Below, one piece after another: positions 12,622 to 26,100 of a stretch of 64,000 nt of DNA. The first letter of the stretch is position 1, and every line of letters begins with the position of its first letter. The stretch lies in assembly GCF_010501095.1 (NCBI RefSeq), contig NZ_QVMP01000008.1, forward strand, positions 1-64,000. Direction: 5' to 3'. Both the position numbers and the translations under genes were made by a program. Under the pieces are notes generated by a model. It made no database searches. It saw nothing but the letters and a program-made list of their open reading frames with translations, and had not been told where the DNA came from. The stretch is from Dysgonomonas sp. 520 (GTDB taxonomy: Bacteria > Bacteroidota > Bacteroidia > Bacteroidales > Dysgonomonadaceae).

Positions 12622-15006
12622 TTAGAAAGGATATCCAATAGCAATGTGCCATGCCGTGTTTTTCTTGAATCTAAGAGGTTCAAGTACAGGCCAATGGTTA
12701 TTTCCGGGTTTGTCTGCGGGATCGTGAAGTTTCCATCCGCAATCGAGACGGACAAGCACAAAATCGAAATCGAAACGGATACCCAATCCCCACGAAGCGG
12801 CTATTTCTTTATAAAAGCTGTCGAATTTGAAATTGCCCTTTTCTTGTCCTTCATATTCTTTTACCGTCCAGATGTTTCCGGCATCAAGAAAGGCTGCGAA
12901 TTCTACTATCCAGAATGCTTTACTTCGATATTCAATATTGGCGTCGAAACGTATATCACCCGAGTGGAAGTAGAAATTATCATTTTCGTTATAATAAGCA
13001 CCCGGCCCAAGTTCTCTTATCCCCCAGCCTCTCACACTATTGGCTCCACCTGAGAAAAAGCGTTTTTGTATCGGAATCAGCTTACTGTTCCCATAAGGAT
13101 ATGCGATGCCGCCCCCGATGCGCCATGCGATGGAGTTTTTCTCATCCAGCCTATACGTACTGCTAAAATCCATATTCGCTTTCACGTATTGCGCAAATGT
13201 TGTGTTAAAGACTTTCTTCGATCCGTCTTCATTCTCTTTCACATCTGTTATGTTGGCGGCCAGAGCCAAAACATTGCCGGCTGTTTCGACCGAAGCCCTG
13301 AACGTTTTTATAACATTCTGCCTTTTGTTCAGAAAATTATGGTTGCTGTAATAATACGAATACCCTGCACTCATAATAAACTGATCTTGAAAACTATACA
13401 GGCGAGCTTCAGGCGTAAGGTCTGCCAGAAAATTAGCATCTACATAAGGCAGGTGAATATAACTCACATCAAGCAAATCGAGCGTATGTCTTATCTTATT
13501 GTCACGCCTTTGATTCCACATATATTTCAGGCTTCCCCCCGAAATGGTACGTGTAAAATAATTGGGGCGGCGCTGATAACTGAAATTGGCTGTTATCTGG
13601 GTCGATGCACGCAATCGACGCTTAATTTTTCGGGTCAGGAATGGATTTATGAAGCGAGGAAACATGAGCGATGTTTCGCCGCCTATTTCAAAATAATTAT
13701 CTTCGAAATTCGAAAAACTCGCATTTATAGCTTCGTATGCACCATGCAATTTTATATTGAACTGCTCCGAACCTTTAAATATATTCCGGTGAGTGTATCC
13801 GATACCTGCGCCAACACCAAAGTCGCCTGCCGAGTTTGTGCCCTCGGCCTCTATGGATATTCCTTGTTTCTTGTCTGGCATACAAGTAATTATACAGTCA
13901 AGATATAAAGAATCCTTTACAGAATAACTGATATTTACATTGCGAAGTATGCGCAATTGCGACATTGCGTCGTAGGTCACATTCGTCATATTTTCGCTGT
14001 ACAATCTTCCGGGCATTATATAACAGGCATTAAGAATCACATCAGGTTTTATGTATTCTTTCCTTTTGCCGTAAACGATGGTATAGCCGTTCTTTTTCAC
14101 CTCGCTTGTTGAGACATACTCACTCACGCTACCAACCTCTAAAGGGTTATAATCCACGTATATATATACATTTCTGATTGTGTATTGCTGATGCGGGCTG
14201 TCTTGTTGTTCGTTGTTGGATATACGAGTCCGAAACGGATAAATGGTCAACTCCAAACCCACATTTCTGTGCTGGGTTGTGTCGGCAATGAAACCAACGT
14301 AATCTTTATTGAACGAATAGAATCCCGAGTTGCGGAAAACACTTGAGATGCGCCCTCTTTCTTCGTCCAGAACATTTAGGTCTAACAAAGATTGAGGTTT
14401 TACGAGTGTATTCGATAACAAAAAATCGTCGAACGACATGTTTTCGTTTACATTCCGCCTTCTATTCGGAATTGAGAGAGCAGTGCCGGAGTATACATTT
14501 TCGGGAAAAACAGAATCGGGAATTAACACCGAATAGTTGTTTATTGTATGCGGTTCGCCTGCTATTATTTCATACGTAACCCTTGCTTTCTTTTTGTTGG
14601 AGAGCAGCCTGACTTCCGATTTAACCTCTGCCGACAAGTATCCTTTGTTTGCAAGAATCTGTTTAAACTCGTTTTCAGTCTTCGTTACCATTTCTCTATC
14701 GAAAATAACAGGAGGCTCGCCTCCGCTTCTCAAAATCTTATTAATCCATTTTGTGCTGTCTTTTCCCGATAAATTGTAGACAAAGAGAGGAAACTTGAAC
14801 AATTCGAATGTTTTGTAATTTGCCTTTTGAGCCACAAAAGGTTTCAGATCGGTAGGAGTAGCGTCTTTGGTGTCGCTTTTTATAGTAACGGAGGCCAGGA
14901 TATATTCTCCATCGGGTACAAACTTCGTAGATTTGCACGATGTGATGCAAATGACGCAAAACATTATGATAAATAGATAGATATACCTTCCGAAAAATTC
15001 TCCCAC
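12622..15006 (-). CDS. tamL: TamL, Omp85-family outer-membrane lipoprotein
   Basis: A 794-residue BamA/TamA-superfamily protein, the Bacteroidota lipoprotein form thought to work with TamB in moving molecules to the outer membrane. The signal peptide ends in lipobox ITSC (Cys24), followed by the characteristic KFVPDGEYIL start, POTRA-like repeats (about 30-370) and a 16-strand-type barrel. FFSGGANSVRGWG is the VRGW/F motif of the Omp85 L6 loop, and the protein ends in an aromatic residue (IAIGYPF). It is divergent from an RNA methyltransferase gene; each has its own -7 element in the shared 119-base spacer. This gene pair is common in Bacteroidota. Confidence 0.9.
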   Translation of the reverse strand: MGEFFGRYIYLFIIMFCVICITSCKSTKFVPDGEYILASVTIKSDTKDATPTDLKPFVAQKANYKTFELFKFPLFVYNLSGKDSTKWINKILRSGGEPPVIFDREMVTKTENEFKQILANKGYLSAEVKSEVRLLSNKKKARVTYEIIAGEPHTINNYSVLIPDSVFPENVYSGTALSIPNRRRNVNENMSFDDFLLSNTLVKPQSLLDLNVLDEERGRISSVFRNSGFYSFNKDYVGFIADTTQHRNVGLELTIYPFRTRISNNEQQDSPHQQYTIRNVYIYVDYNPLEVGSVSEYVSTSEVKKNGYTIVYGKRKEYIKPDVILNACYIMPGRLYSENMTNVTYDAMSQLRILRNVNISYSVKDSLYLDCIITCMPDKKQGISIEAEGTNSAGDFGVGAGIGYTHRNIFKGSEQFNIKLHGAYEAINASFSNFEDNYFEIGGETSLMFPRFINPFLTRKIKRRLRASTQITANFSYQRRPNYFTRTISGGSLKYMWNQRRDNKIRHTLDLLDVSYIHLPYVDANFLADLTPEARLYSFQDQFIMSAGYSYYYSNHNFLNKRQNVIKTFRASVETAGNVLALAANITDVKENEDGSKKVFNTTFAQYVKANMDFSSTYRLDEKNSIAWRIGGGIAYPYGNSKLIPIQKRFFSGGANSVRGWGIRELGPGAYYNENDNFYFHSGDIRFDANIEYRSKAFWIVEFAAFLDAGNIWTVKEYEGQEKGNFKFDSFYKEIAASWGLGIRFDFDFVLVRLDCGWKLHDPADKPGNNHWPVLEPLRFKKNTAWHIAIGYPF

Positions 15007-20140: not shown

Positions 20141-20179
20141 AATGTATATTTTTGCACTCTATATGTATATTTATACAAA
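20141..20179 (+). promoter_or_regulatory. tandem ARG-box-like operator over the argR promoter
   Basis: Two 18-base boxes, 20141-20158 with core TGTATATTTTTGCA and 20162-20179 with core TGTATATTTATACA (a perfect palindrome), are separated by 3 bases, so their centres are 21 bases apart. This is the geometry of paired ARG boxes bound by ArgR hexamers in E. coli. The first box covers the -7 element TATTTTTG (20147-20154), so binding should block transcription of argR and the genes behind it. Confidence 0.6.
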
Positions 20180-20181
20180 CA

Positions 20182-20643
20182 ATGGGTAAAACATTAAGAC
20201 ATAGGGCAATAAAAGAGATAATAGCAAATCTCCCAATAAACAGTCAGGATATACTCCTTAATATGTTGATTGAAAAGGGGTTTAATGTAACTCAGGCAAC
20301 ATTGTCGCGTGATATAAAAGAACTGAAAATAGCTAAAATTCCTACATCATCGGGAGAATATGCATATCAATTACCTCACCAGTCAATAAATGACGATTCG
20401 GAGAGATCGCGTAATTTATCTTCATTTGGATTTATAAGTATCGAATTTTCGGGTTCTTTAGCTGTAATAAAGACCCGTCCAGGTTATGCAATGGGTATAG
20501 CTGGCGATATTGACGCCAGAGCTACTTCAACAATTTTGGGTACTGTTGCCGGAGATGATACAATACTAATCATTCCCCGTGAAAATATAAGTAGAGAGAA
20601 AATATTAGAATCACTGTCGGATATTATACCAACTATACAATGA
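20182..20643 (+). CDS. argR: arginine repressor ArgR
   Basis: Arginine-sensing transcription factor of the ArgR/AhrC family. With the ATG at 20182 it has 153 residues: an N-terminal winged helix (HRAIKEIIANLPINSQDILL, then VTQATLSRDIKELKIAKIP, the recognition helix) and a C-terminal hexamerisation and arginine-binding domain (GYAMGIAGDIDAR, LGTVAGDDTILII). A possible TTG start at 20152 is rejected because it lies inside the -7 promoter element. It heads the arginine operon and overlaps the next gene by 4 bases. Paired ARG-box-like palindromes over its promoter point to autoregulation. Confidence 0.93.
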   Translation: MGKTLRHRAIKEIIANLPINSQDILLNMLIEKGFNVTQATLSRDIKELKIAKIPTSSGEYAYQLPHQSINDDSERSRNLSSFGFISIEFSGSLAVIKTRPGYAMGIAGDIDARATSTILGTVAGDDTILIIPRENISREKILESLSDIIPTIQ

Positions 20644-21278
20644 TAGAAGTTAAAAGTTATTCATCAATAACTGAAATGGAAAACAAACAAGACGAAATTA
20701 CGGTAGAAGTGGCTAACGAAAGCCACGTTTCTTATGTGCAAACTATATTGGACACAATAGAAGCTGCTGCAAAAGTGCGAGGCACGGGTATAGCCAAAAG
20801 AAGCCCCGAATATATAGAGCAAAAAATGAAAGAAGGCAAAGCTATTATAGCATTGGCGGGAGATCAGTTTGCTGGTTTTTGTTATATCGAAACGTGGGGG
20901 AACAAACAGTTCGTGGCTAACTCAGGACTTATAGTTGACGACAAATATAGAGGACATGGCTTGGCTTTGCGCATTAAACAAACTGCTTTTGCCTTGAGCC
21001 GGACAATGTTTCCCGATGCAAAAATATTCGGTTTGACATCCGGTGCAGCGGTGATGAAGATCAATACCAAGTTAGGATATTACCCTGTAACGTTTGCTCA
21101 ACTAACCGATGATGAAGCATTCTGGCGTGGGTGTCAGGGATGTATAAATTATGACATACTGACACGGACCGACAGAAAATATTGCATCTGCACGGCAATG
21201 CTCTATGATCCCCGTAAACACGAGGACAGACTGGAAATAATAGATTTAATGAAAAAACTAAAAGATAAAACTCAATGA
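20640..21278 (+). CDS. GNAT acyltransferase, likely N-acylglutamate synthase
   Basis: A 212-residue GNAT-fold protein. Family features include IALAGDQFAGFCYIETW (strands 2-4), the acyl-CoA loop in VDDKYRGHGLALRIKQTA, and FGLTSGAAVMKINTKLGY. The C-terminal part contains a Cys-rich stretch (WRGCQGCINYDILTR, CICTAMLYD). It is embedded by 4-base overlaps between argR and argG. No classical argA or argJ is in the window, and Bacteroidota need an N-acetyl- or N-succinylglutamate for this pathway. I recall a GNAT protein at this place in Bacteroides being proposed as the N-acylglutamate synthase. The assignment rests on context plus fold. Confidence 0.7.
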   Translation: MIEVKSYSSITEMENKQDEITVEVANESHVSYVQTILDTIEAAAKVRGTGIAKRSPEYIEQKMKEGKAIIALAGDQFAGFCYIETWGNKQFVANSGLIVDDKYRGHGLALRIKQTAFALSRTMFPDAKIFGLTSGAAVMKINTKLGYYPVTFAQLTDDEAFWRGCQGCINYDILTRTDRKYCICTAMLYDPRKHEDRLEIIDLMKKLKDKTQ

Positions 21279-22474
21279 AAAAGAAAGTTGTTTTGGCATT
21301 CAGCGGAGGATTGGATACTTCTTTTTGTGCCATGTATCTGTCGAAAGACAAAGGGTATGATGTTTATACGGCGATTGCCAATACCGGAGGTTTTTCTCCC
21401 GAAGAGTTGAAAGTGATAGAAGAAAAAGCGTATAAACTAGGCGCAGTGAAGCATGTCACCTTGGATGTTACACAAGAATATTACGAGAAGAGCATAAAAT
21501 ATATGATTTTCGGGAATGTGATGCGTAACGGCACATATCCCATATCGGTTAGCTCGGAGCGTATTTTTCAGGCGATGGCGATTATCAATTATGCTAAAGA
21601 GATAGGTGCGGATGCAGTGGCTCATGGAAGTACCGGCGCAGGAAACGATCAGGTTCGTTTCGATCTGACATTTGATGTTCTTGCACCCGAAATAGAGATC
21701 ATAACCCCTACACGTGATATGATTCTGACTCGTGAATATGAGATCAATTATCTGAAAGAACATGGCTACGAAGCCGATTTCGCAAAGATGGAGTATTCTA
21801 TCAATAAAGGATTGTGGGGAACTAGCATCGGAGGAAAAGAAACGCTGAAATCGGATCAAACATTACCGGAAGAAGCATATCCGTCTCAATTGAAAAAAAC
21901 GGAGCCTGAAACTCTTACTATTGATTTTGAAAAAGGAGAGATTGTTGCCGTGAATGGCGCAAAATACATAGATAAGGTTGCGGCTATAAACAAGATTGAA
22001 GAAATAACTTCAGCTTTTGCCATAGGCAGGGATATGCACATCGGCGACACCATAATAGGTATAAAAGGGCGTGTAGGCTTTGAGGCTGCTGCTCCCGTCG
22101 TGATAATCAATGCTCACAAAATGTTGGAAAAACATACTCTTACCAAATGGCAACAATACTGGAAAGACCAACTGGGCAACTGGTATGGCATGTTCCTTCA
22201 CGAAGCGCAGTACTTAGAGCCTGTGATGCGTGATATTGAGGCTTTCCTCGAAAATTCTCAAGATAATGTAACAGGCAGGGTTATTGTGAAATTGATGCCT
22301 TATCATTACGTGTTGGTGGGTGTAGAAAGCGATTTCGACCTGATGAAAGCCGACTTTGGTGAATATGGTGAAGTGAACAAGGCTTGGACTTCGGACGATG
22401 CTAAAGGATTCACTAAAATCTATTCGATGACGAACAAGATTTTCCATAGTGTGCAAAAGAAAAACGGAAAATAA
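21275..22474 (+). CDS. argG: argininosuccinate synthase
   Basis: Joins citrulline and aspartate with ATP to make argininosuccinate. The 399-residue product opens with the PP-loop motif AFSGGLDTSF (residues 8-17) and has HGSTGAGNDQVRFD and the SIGGKETLKSD segment, fitting the family. It overlaps the GNAT gene by 4 bases. A 122-base gap with an inverted repeat separates it from argC. argH and the carbamoyltransferase gene are not in the window. Confidence 0.95.
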   Translation: MKKKVVLAFSGGLDTSFCAMYLSKDKGYDVYTAIANTGGFSPEELKVIEEKAYKLGAVKHVTLDVTQEYYEKSIKYMIFGNVMRNGTYPISVSSERIFQAMAIINYAKEIGADAVAHGSTGAGNDQVRFDLTFDVLAPEIEIITPTRDMILTREYEINYLKEHGYEADFAKMEYSINKGLWGTSIGGKETLKSDQTLPEEAYPSQLKKTEPETLTIDFEKGEIVAVNGAKYIDKVAAINKIEEITSAFAIGRDMHIGDTIIGIKGRVGFEAAAPVVIINAHKMLEKHTLTKWQQYWKDQLGNWYGMFLHEAQYLEPVMRDIEAFLENSQDNVTGRVIVKLMPYHYVLVGVESDFDLMKADFGEYGEVNKAWTSDDAKGFTKIYSMTNKIFHSVQKKNGK

Positions 22475-22596: not shown

Positions 22597-23565
22597 ATGA
22601 TAAAAGCAGGAATTATAGGTGGAGCCGGATATACGGCAGGAGAATTGATACGCATACTGATAAATCACTCTCGGGTGGAATTGGTATTTGTGAATAGCAC
22701 AAGCAATGCAGGTAATAAACTGACCGATGTTCACGAAGGATTATTGGGTGATACGGAAATGATCTTTACAGATCAGTTGCCATACGATCAGATTGACGTG
22801 CTGTTTTTCTGTACAGCTCATGGCGATACAAAAAAGTTTTTGGAGGCTAACGAAGTTCCCGGTCATTTGAAAATTATTGACCTGTCCACAGATTACCGTC
22901 AAAAATCGCCGGACCACGAGTTTGTATATGGTTTACCCGAACTAAATAAAGCACAAATTCAGAAAGCGAACCGCATAGCCAACCCCGGTTGTTTCGCAAC
23001 AGCTATTCAATTGGGATTGTTGCCATTAGCTAAAGCAGGATTGATTAATTCGGAAGTACACGTTAATGCGATTACAGGTTCTACGGGTGCAGGAGTGAAA
23101 CCATCGGCTACCTCTCATTTTAGCTGGCGCGAGAATAATATTTCAGTATATAAAGCGTTCACACACCAGCATTTAGCCGAGATTCGTCAATCTCTGGTTC
23201 AACTTCAAAATGGTTTCGACCATAGCATAAACTTTATTCCTGTGCGTGGTAATTTTACACGGGGAATATTCGTTACCTCATACCTGAATTATAGCGGTTC
23301 GATAGATGATGTAAAAAAACTTTACGAGGATTTTTACGACGGGCATCCGTTTACTATTGTAACAGATAAAAATCCCGATTTGAAACAAGTGGTGAATACC
23401 AATAAATGTATAATCCATTTGGAGAAACACGGAGATAAATTGCTAATTTTGTCATGTATTGATAATTTACTGAAAGGTGCTTCGGGACAGGCTGTACAAA
23501 ACATGAATCTTATCTTTGGATTGGATGAATTGGAAGGACTGAGGTTGAAAGCTGTGGGATTTTAA
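22597..23565 (+). CDS. argC: N-acyl-gamma-glutamyl-phosphate reductase
   Basis: NADPH-dependent reduction of N-acylglutamyl phosphate to the semialdehyde in arginine synthesis. The 322-residue product has GGAGYTAGELIRIL at 7-20 (nucleotide-binding fold) and the catalytic Cys132 in NPGCFATAI, with the conserved HQHLAEI and PVRGNFTRGI segments. It is shorter than the E. coli enzyme but normal for Bacteroidota. Whether the substrate is acetylated or succinylated cannot be read from the sequence. Confidence 0.94.
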   Translation: MIKAGIIGGAGYTAGELIRILINHSRVELVFVNSTSNAGNKLTDVHEGLLGDTEMIFTDQLPYDQIDVLFFCTAHGDTKKFLEANEVPGHLKIIDLSTDYRQKSPDHEFVYGLPELNKAQIQKANRIANPGCFATAIQLGLLPLAKAGLINSEVHVNAITGSTGAGVKPSATSHFSWRENNISVYKAFTHQHLAEIRQSLVQLQNGFDHSINFIPVRGNFTRGIFVTSYLNYSGSIDDVKKLYEDFYDGHPFTIVTDKNPDLKQVVNTNKCIIHLEKHGDKLLILSCIDNLLKGASGQAVQNMNLIFGLDELEGLRLKAVGF

Positions 23566-23579
23566 AAGCTGAAAATATC

Positions 23580-24203
23580 ATGATAAAACGAATCTTTAAT
23601 AAAATATTTGGAATAAAACCAAAAGAAGAACCACCTGAGTATCTGAAATATATAGAAAATGAGGGGTCGATACTAAGGTATGGATTCAATGCAAGGTTGG
23701 ATAATCCGGTGGAAGGCCGGAAATATATGAATTTTGGCAAAGATTCAATTCTTGATTGTAATTTAGTTTTTGAGTCGGATAAGGGATATATATCCATTGG
23801 GGATAGCTGTATCATTGGTCATTCAACATTCATATCCCGAAAAGAAATAATAATAGAAGATCATGTTCTTATAAGTTGGGGATGCCTGATATCTGATAAT
23901 AATTCTCATTCGCTGGATTATAAAAATAGACGGGAAGATCATCAGAACATGTTAAAAGATGTTCTTGACCATAAAAATCCCAATTATAGTAAAAATTGGG
24001 ATACAGTTGAATCGAAACCTATACGGGTATGTTCCGATGCCTGGATTGGCATGAATTGCATCATAATGAAAGGCGTTACCATTGGCCGGGGTGCTGTGGT
24101 TGGAGCAAACAGCGTGGTGACGAAAGATGTACCTGATTTTACGGTAGTTGCCGGCAATCCTGCCAAAATAATTAAGAACTTGCCCCAAGAATACACTTAT
24201 TAA
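23580..24203 (+). CDS. hexapeptide-repeat acyltransferase in the arginine operon
   Basis: A 207-residue left-handed beta-helix acyltransferase. Hexapeptide repeats are visible in two runs: ISIGDSCIIGHSTFIS near 80-95 and DAWIGMNCIIMKGVTIGRG to VVAGNPAKII near 150-200, the typical end of maltose/galactoside O-acetyltransferases. An acceptor is not identifiable. It lies 14 bases after argC and 11 bases before argD, in frame with operon transcription. This position between core arginine genes is not the usual gene order I know, so it may be a recent insertion or a pathway-related acyl transfer enzyme. Confidence 0.8.
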   Translation: MIKRIFNKIFGIKPKEEPPEYLKYIENEGSILRYGFNARLDNPVEGRKYMNFGKDSILDCNLVFESDKGYISIGDSCIIGHSTFISRKEIIIEDHVLISWGCLISDNNSHSLDYKNRREDHQNMLKDVLDHKNPNYSKNWDTVESKPIRVCSDAWIGMNCIIMKGVTIGRGAVVGANSVVTKDVPDFTVVAGNPAKIIKNLPQEYTY

Positions 24204-24214
24204 ATAAAATTGAA

Positions 24215-25336
24215 ATGAAACTATTTGATGTATATCCATTATTCGATATAAATATTGTTGAAGGAAAAGGTTGCTATGTTTATGACGACAAGGGAAATGA
24301 GTATCTTGACCTTTATGGTGGTCATGCCGTTATCTCGGTAGGGCACACACATCCCTACTATGTGGAGAAAGTTACAGGTCAATTGAATAGACTGGCATTT
24401 TACTCAAATTCGATTGTAAATAAATTACAAGCAGAACTGGCTCAGAAACTTGGCGAGCAATGCGGATATGACGATTATTCGCTATTTCTGGTGAACTCTG
24501 GTGCTGAAGCTAATGAAAATGCCTTGAAACTCGCATCATTTCACAATGGGCGCAAGAAAGTATTATCATTCAAAAAGGCTTTTCACGGACGCACATCTGC
24601 TGCTGTTAAGGTGACCGATTCGCCTAGTTATCAGGCTCCTGTTAACGATGGTTTGGAGGTTGTTTTTGTTCCGTTCAACGATATTGAAGCGGTAAGAAGC
24701 GAGTTGCAGAAAGGGGATTTCTCCTCTGTAATTATCGAAGGAATACAAGGTGTGGGAGGAATACAAATACCTGATGACGGTTTCATGAAACAGCTTCGTC
24801 AGTTATGTACCGAAACGGGCACAATACTGATTCTTGACGAAATTCAATCGGGGTATGGACGTAGTGGAAAATTCTTCGCCCATCAATACGCAGATATAAA
24901 AGCCGATATTATAACTGTGGCTAAGGGTATCGGCAATGGATTTCCTATGTCGGCTGCATTGATCAGCCCGATTTTTAAGGCTGTGTACGGGCAATTAGGA
25001 ACTACCTTCGGTGGCAATCACTTGGCTTGTTCTGCTGCTATTGCAGTTCTTGATATCATGAAAAACGAAAATCTTGTAGATAATGCCCAAAAGGTTGGGG
25101 AGTATCTTATGACAGAACTAAAAAAACTTCCTAATATCAAAGATGTTCGGGGCAGAGGACTAATGATTGGTATCGAACTGGACGAGCCAATCAAAGAAAA
25201 GAGAAGCAAACTTCTTTTCGAGGAGAAAATTTTTACCGGTTCCACCGGAACACACGTTTTCAGGCTTCTACCTCCATTGTGCTTGACAATAGAGCAGGCT
25301 GATGTATTCCTTGAGAAATTCAAGAAAGTATTGTGA
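24215..25336 (+). CDS. argD: N-acylornithine aminotransferase
   Basis: PLP-dependent class III aminotransferase converting N-acyl-glutamate semialdehyde to N-acylornithine. The 373-residue product has the subgroup III pattern: VNSGAEANENALKLA, FKKAFHGRTSA, LDEIQSGYGRSG and the Schiff-base Lys237 in VAKGIGNGFPMSA. It lies downstream of argC and the hexapeptide transferase; its stop overlaps the GTG start of a GH25 gene. Acetyl versus succinyl specificity is not decided by sequence. Confidence 0.92.
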   Translation: MKLFDVYPLFDINIVEGKGCYVYDDKGNEYLDLYGGHAVISVGHTHPYYVEKVTGQLNRLAFYSNSIVNKLQAELAQKLGEQCGYDDYSLFLVNSGAEANENALKLASFHNGRKKVLSFKKAFHGRTSAAVKVTDSPSYQAPVNDGLEVVFVPFNDIEAVRSELQKGDFSSVIIEGIQGVGGIQIPDDGFMKQLRQLCTETGTILILDEIQSGYGRSGKFFAHQYADIKADIITVAKGIGNGFPMSAALISPIFKAVYGQLGTTFGGNHLACSAAIAVLDIMKNENLVDNAQKVGEYLMTELKKLPNIKDVRGRGLMIGIELDEPIKEKRSKLLFEEKIFTGSTGTHVFRLLPPLCLTIEQADVFLEKFKKVL

Positions 25337-26064
25337 GAAAAAAGTATATAAAATATACACTTTTAGGCATTTTTTCAATATTTATTGTCATTTTTGGCGG
25401 ATTATTTGCCTTTTATGGAGGATATTTACGACTGAATTATCCGTCATTTGCCAAGTATCCCATTCATGGATTGGATATATCTCATCATCAGGGGATTATA
25501 GACTGGCAAAAACTTGACAAAAAGTATACGCAGTTTGTCTTCATGAAAGCAACGGAAGGCGTCACACATGTGGATACGTTGTTCGAAAGAAATTACAGGG
25601 AAGCCAAAAAGCAGAATATTCCTGTGGGTGCTTATCATTTCTTTACTTTTTGCAAGCCGGGAAAAGAGCAGGCCGAAAATTTTATTAAAACCGTACCAAA
25701 AGACAGGTCTGATATGCCTCCCGCAATTGATCTTGAATATAGTGGCAATTGCAAAAGAGATAATCATCTGGAAAATTTGATAGACGAGATTTCGGAATAT
25801 ATACAAATTGTGGAAGATTATTACGAGAAAAAAGTAGTAATATACGCAACTGAGGACTTTTATAACGATTATCTGGTTACCAATTTGTTAGACAACCCGA
25901 TATGGATACGGGATATTTATCGGGAACCCCGATTGGTCAATGATCGGCCTTGGATGTTCTGGCAATATGCTAACAGAGGAAGGCTCAAAGGAATAGAAAC
26001 ATTTGTAGATATAAATGTTTTTGTCGGGACAAAAAAAGATTTTCGAGAACTCATTGATAATTAG
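25333..26064 (+). CDS. membrane-anchored GH25 lysozyme-like hydrolase
   Basis: A 243-residue muramidase-family (GH25) protein. It has an N-terminal transmembrane anchor (about 9-31) and the TIM-barrel motifs HGLDISHHQGIIDW (Asp48), FMKATEGVTHVD, VGAYHFFTF and PAIDLEYSG with the catalytic D-x-E pair. The GTG start overlaps the argD stop by 4 bases, so translation is coupled although no functional link to arginine synthesis is known. A second GH25 gene (45278-46039) has the same layout. A strong terminator ends the operon here. Confidence 0.88.
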   Translation: MRKKYIKYTLLGIFSIFIVIFGGLFAFYGGYLRLNYPSFAKYPIHGLDISHHQGIIDWQKLDKKYTQFVFMKATEGVTHVDTLFERNYREAKKQNIPVGAYHFFTFCKPGKEQAENFIKTVPKDRSDMPPAIDLEYSGNCKRDNHLENLIDEISEYIQIVEDYYEKKVVIYATEDFYNDYLVTNLLDNPIWIRDIYREPRLVNDRPWMFWQYANRGRLKGIETFVDINVFVGTKKDFRELIDN

Positions 26065-26072
26065 AATAATAT

Positions 26073-26100
26073 AACAGTAGTAAATTTACTACTGTTTTTT
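26073..26100 (+). terminator. rho-independent terminator of the arginine operon
   Basis: A perfect palindrome with 12-base arms (aacagtagtaaa / tttactactgtt) is followed by TTTT, 8 bases after the GH25 stop. Confidence 0.85.

Follow-up and report, generated by a model that had tools for sequence, protein, structure and literature searches.

The window analysed here is a stretch of 64,000 nucleotides of Dysgonomonas sp. 520. It holds a forward-strand series of genes that opens with argR and continues through a GNAT-family acetyltransferase gene, argG, argC, a hexapeptide-repeat acyltransferase gene and an argD-type aminotransferase gene, with two ARG-box-like sites immediately before argR (Table 1). 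The GNAT gene overlaps argG as well as argR, and the gap ahead of argC showed no box. The end of argD is overlapped by a gene for a GH25 lysozyme-like protein, apparently the final gene of the arginine operon, whose predicted end is marked by a terminator-like stem.

Table 1 Features of the argR operon and its upstream region in the window
Feature	Position	Strand	Basis
ARG-box-like site 1 (box 1); core TGTATATTTTTGCA at 20143-20156; right half doubles as the -7 element	20141..20158	+	Sequence
Predicted TAnnTTTG-type -7 promoter element (TATTTTTG), within box 1	20147..20154	+	Sequence; match in 30/30 family argR regions (best 30 of 54)
ARG-box-like site 2 (box 2); core TGTATATTTATACA at 20164-20177, ending 4 nt before ATG; probably within the transcribed leader	20162..20179	+	Sequence
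argR, arginine repressor, 153 aa, GDDT effector motif	20182..20643	+	PF01316, PF02863, TIGR01529, 1f9n
GNAT-family acetyltransferase, second operon gene, overlaps argR	20640..21278	+	PF00583, 21.6 bits (cut-off 20.7); ORF
argG, argininosuccinate synthase	21275..22474	+	TIGR00032, 275.2 bits, above cut-off
argC, after a 122-bp gap	22597..23565	+	TIGR01850, 303.6 bits, above cut-off
Hexapeptide-repeat acyltransferase	23580..24203	+	PF00132
argD-type aminotransferase	24215..25336	+	PF00202, 340 bits; TIGR00707 is the best match, below its cut-off
Glycosyl hydrolase family 25 (GH25) protein, overlaps argD; probable last gene	25333..26064	+	PF01183
Terminator-like 10-bp stem with T run, probable operon end	26073..26096	+	Sequence

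The product of argR matches both domains of the arginine repressor, i.e. the N-terminal winged helix (PF01316, 76.3 bits, cut-off 27, E = 1.5e-21) and the C-terminal oligomerisation and arginine-binding domain (PF02863, 73.8 bits, cut-off 25, E = 1e-20), and it scores above the cut-off of TIGR01529 (135.1 bits against 130.45). Its best solved relative is 1f9n (E = 3.9e-28), which we take to be AhrC of B. subtilis. The two proteins are near-identical in the recognition stretch, TQAT(L/V)SRDIKEL, and share the Gly-Asp-Asp (GDD) turn, which in the window protein lies in GTVAGDDT. AhrC also activates catabolic genes. As set out in a comparative study (PMC7248756), the Asp pair of this turn contacts L-arginine in the B. 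subtilis and E. coli proteins, and the turn is the sole stretch of more than two residues common to the four ArgRs compared there.

A preliminary description had placed two palindromic boxes, 21 bp apart, at 20141-20179, and they are indeed present there. The cores start 21 bp from each other, and 3 bp separate the two 18-bp boxes. Box 2 is a perfect TGTATA-TT-TATACA palindrome; box 1 is an imperfect one, with TTGCA as its right half. When the pair was searched for with up to two mismatches, the 64 kb matched at this place alone, once per strand, while shuffles of the window predicted 0.03 matches and none of 100 shuffles contained two. Single boxes alone say little, because a reversed control matches as often: TGTATAWWTATACA has one exact copy in the 3.91-Mb genome, and with up to one mismatch it occurs at 15 places genome-wide (this one included) against 17 for the control. 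None of the other 14 places resembled an arg operon when judged by eye. By a 12-point score, further single-box matches in the window lie at 14157, 23783, 33480 and 55573, the last within a glycosyltransferase-like ORF; another single-box match, at 5256 of L133, falls at the end of an unrelated ORF.

In E. coli, the ARG-box half-site is TGAAT and the core TGNATWWWWATNCA, and the argR operator itself has a gap of 2 bp. The canonical E. coli site (PMC6640053) consists of two 18-bp semi-palindromes with 3 bp between them, to which hexameric arginine-bound ArgR binds. The likeness to this geometry that had been proposed for the window holds, with two 18-bp imperfect palindromes, a 3-bp gap and a centre-to-centre distance of 21 bp; the site also overlaps a predicted promoter element. 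It differs from those of E. coli in the third half-site base, which is mostly T, in its predicted promoter, which is of the Bacteroidota -7 type, and in that one such pair was found in the genome.

We then compared argR upstream regions within the family Dysgonomonadaceae. Among 101 genomes searched, 54 had an ArgR match, and the best 30 of these 54, the window included, made up the family set. This alignment, which had been named as a check on the boxes, came out in their favour: all of the best 30 have a box 2 adjoining the start codon together with a box-1-like site carrying the -7 element. The distance between the boxes is 21 bp in 21 regions, 22 bp in six and 20 bp in one, so that 28/30 fall within 20-22 bp; the outliers are L025 (31 bp, with a weaker match at 21) and L023 (32 bp). 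In the same 30 regions 1-4 nt separate the end of box 2 from the start codon, so that no single frame is kept, and conservation of box 2 as coding sequence was rejected on this ground. A stricter search for the pair (at most one mismatch) matched in 22/101 family genomes, and its reversed control in none. In 21 of these 22 the pair stands at argR, which begins 22-28 bp from the centre of the site, and in the remaining genome, G056, there is no ArgR at the site. The strict pair is absent from 33 of the 54 ArgR-bearing genomes (21/54 match) because some have the 22-bp spacing and many have an ArgR of the relocated kind described below.

The third base of the half-site varies in the family (T 0.64, A 0.19, C 0.16). 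It had been suggested that a TGTATA-rich motif takes the place of TGAAT in Bacteroidota; this does not stand, since with T, A or C at the third base TGTAT is not a phylum motif, and the motif is better written TGNATAWWTATNCA, a form that includes the classic TGAAT.

The -7 element of Bacteroidota has the consensus TAnnTTTG. Box 1 contains TATTTTTG, a predicted match to it. The claim that the first box covers the -7 element agrees with the sequence, the right half of the box coinciding with this predicted element. Were RNA polymerase to use this match, transcription would begin at about 20158-20161 and take in box 2. A scan for sigma-70 promoters gave no excess (26 against 22.6). With its right half explained by the promoter alone, box 1 might be nothing but a -7 element with an AT-rich flank, and box 2 the only operator; by the 12-point score, box 1 at the proper spacing never beats box 2. 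However, the left half of box 1 lies outside the -7 element, and the TG that completes it stands 5' of the -7 match in 30/30 family argR regions (best 30 of 54) but in only 14 of 83 control -7 matches, which were taken from the window and sixteen other loci (argR was counted per region and controls per match, and control regions ending in a box-like string were dropped). The 20-22 bp phase kept in 28 of the best 30 speaks against this explanation too, as do five loci of Tannerellaceae/Parabacteroides type (L054, L063, L066, L069 and L082, from Parabacteroides, Tannerella and relatives) in which a second box lies 42-43 bp upstream of the first, about twice 21. We consider it improbable that box 2 acts alone; as judged from the sequence comparisons, box 1 is more than a promoter element. 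By eye, some relatives have a third, weaker box that covers the -33 region, about 20 bp further upstream than box 1; none was seen in the window's own sequence. Prolixibacter (L074) has four successive matches at 20-21 bp.

To follow the box through other Bacteroidota, a profile was trained on family box 2 alone and applied with a threshold of 8 bits to 45 of 80 named loci (Dysgonomonas-named loci, L052, rows that were too short, other phyla and L126, a Bacteroidota locus without box at -13 bits, were left out). The profile reached the threshold before argR in 34/45 loci, compared with 10/335 upstream regions of other genes at the same loci, and 39/45 loci had p values of 0.05 or below against dinucleotide shuffles. 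The 10 control matches lie before argG (one), argC (two), argD (one), carA (one), carB (three) and argR read from another start (two), the genes being identified by comparing their first residues with genes of the window genome. Because these loci surround argR, the 335 control regions contain a disproportionate share of arg genes. Elsewhere in Bacteroidota, then, the regions before carA, carB, argC, argD and argG can carry boxes. At L088, L097, L107 and L084, argR is divergent from carB or carA, with boxes in the shared intergenic region.

A survey of the order, Bacteroidales, found ArgR in 114/295 genomes. The pair with up to two mismatches matched at 68 sites in 60/295 genomes, and the reversed control in three; at 47/68 sites argR follows at a distance of 2-359 bp. 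In genomes that have ArgR, 11 of 58 pairs stand elsewhere than at argR. One of these is at GNAT-argG in G231, a genome with argR on another contig, where the pair lies about 180 bp upstream of GNAT-argG, before the next gene. Three stand before genes for pyrB-like aspartate carbamoyltransferases (L218, L220 and L224, from G181, G284 and G372, all of one family) and one before an aspartokinase-like gene; no arginine link was seen for the other six. Genomes of the order that lack ArgR contain 10 pairs in nine genomes, none of which adjoins an arg gene as judged from first residues.

What becomes of the boxes when ArgR is lost was followed in 20 of the 47 family genomes with no ArgR match. GNAT with adjoining argG was present in 19/20, and none of these 19 had a box in the 150 bp that precede the first ATG of the GNAT frame; on extension to 350 bp, 2/19 reached 8 bits. 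Twelve genomes lacking ArgR added from elsewhere in the order gave no GNAT match. The loss of the box together with argR is partly trivial, because loss of argR takes its own upstream DNA with it.

A further case is that of ArgR-like proteins in a new position. Outside the best 30 there are 24 family ArgR genes, and the loci of 20 were examined. In two of them (L248 and L249, from the family's genera g13 and g11) ArgR is linked to GNAT and boxes are present. The other 18 (L250-L267, genera g6-g10) have no boxes before the ArgR-like gene, which in 18/18 is preceded by a DUF2027/Smr gene and a LEA2-like lipoprotein gene, and in at least 6/18, the stretches being short, is followed by a uridine kinase gene; the full neighbourhood can be seen at L263:9-2451. 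In a tree of 52 rows these 18 proteins group as a single, fully supported clade. By eye, the first Asp of the GDD turn is replaced in 16/18 (His in eight, Asn in seven, Ser in one), L267 has its second Asp changed and L253 keeps both, so that the turn is changed in 17/18. GNAT-argG itself is present in 18/20 genomes with a relocated ArgR (17 with the ArgR locus seen, plus G050), and no box lies within 350 bp of it in any of these 18. Across 119 distinct Bacteroidota ArgRs, a box is present for 87/97 genes linked to GNAT or argG and for 2/22 unlinked ones; for the remaining 10/97 linked genes, nothing in 110 bp reaches 8 bits. This count includes the 30 training loci, and non-Bacteroidota loci, L126, duplicates and rows with less than 70 nt upstream were dropped. 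The relocated clade offers an experiment of nature, with operator and arginine pocket decaying side by side. That the relocated ArgR of g6-g10 has changed its signal and targets, its old operators having eroded, and that the window genome keeps the ancestral state, has in our view about an even chance of being right.

Taken together, conservation, position, spacing, specificity for argR and arg/car genes, and loss of the boxes where ArgR is lost or altered strongly support the proposal that an ArgR operator lies over the argR promoter. We put the probability that the site is an ArgR operator of paired-ARG-box build serving autorepression at roughly 90%. The gene neighbourhood alone does not name the binder, and a regulator other than ArgR could in principle occupy the boxes, but the core and the ARG-box geometry agree with ArgR, and the boxes track argR and arg/car genes and are missing where ArgR has been lost or altered, which makes another binder very unlikely. 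An RNA leader hairpin near the start codon, to which the probable leader position of box 2 and its perfect palindrome in the window would lend themselves, was rejected and has next to no probability left, since its stem would be 5 bp, bases 3 and 12 of box 2 are unpaired in 15/30 family sequences (C/A in eight, T/T in six, C/T in one; best 30 of 54) and the G231 pair stands far upstream of its gene.

For the ArgR operator, the behaviour of the family predicts arginine-dependent binding and repression. One arginine-bound ArgR, assumed from the family to be a hexamer, would lie along one face of the DNA and cover both 18-bp boxes. Since box 1 sits on the predicted -7 element and box 2 probably falls within the first bases to be transcribed, ArgR binding would block RNA polymerase. 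Plentiful arginine would then repress argR-GNAT-argG-argC-acyltransferase-argD, and also the GH25 gene if it is co-transcribed, the start of the transcript and the extent of the operon being predictions.

The kind of operator is already known, and the switch is real but ordinary. Among the few papers that a literature search on ArgR or the arginine repressor in Bacteroides and Bacteroidetes brought up, none appears to deal with an ArgR operator of Bacteroidota. The RegPrecise 3.0 paper (PMC3840689) gives 35 transcription factor regulogs for the Bacteroidaceae collection and treats ArgR as one family; if that collection includes a Bacteroidaceae ArgR regulog, the motif is already recorded there. 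The site carries the paired ARG-box operator, its 21-bp geometry unchanged, over to Bacteroidota promoters, and TGNATAWWTATNCA can serve as a motif in searches for arginine control across Bacteroidales. The more interesting lead is the relocated ArgR clade, in which box and arginine pocket decayed jointly.

For the window's own genome, the preliminary description had proposed a scan for further copies before argH, carAB and the carbamoyltransferase gene. The upstream regions of carA and argF', like those of proB and argB, contain no box, and argH was not located with the family model used. With a pair count of one, boxes before other arginine genes, as a multi-operon ArgR regulon would have, were not apparent from the sequence of this genome. 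The genes argF', proA, proB, carB and carA lie together on one contig (L132:5210-13272).
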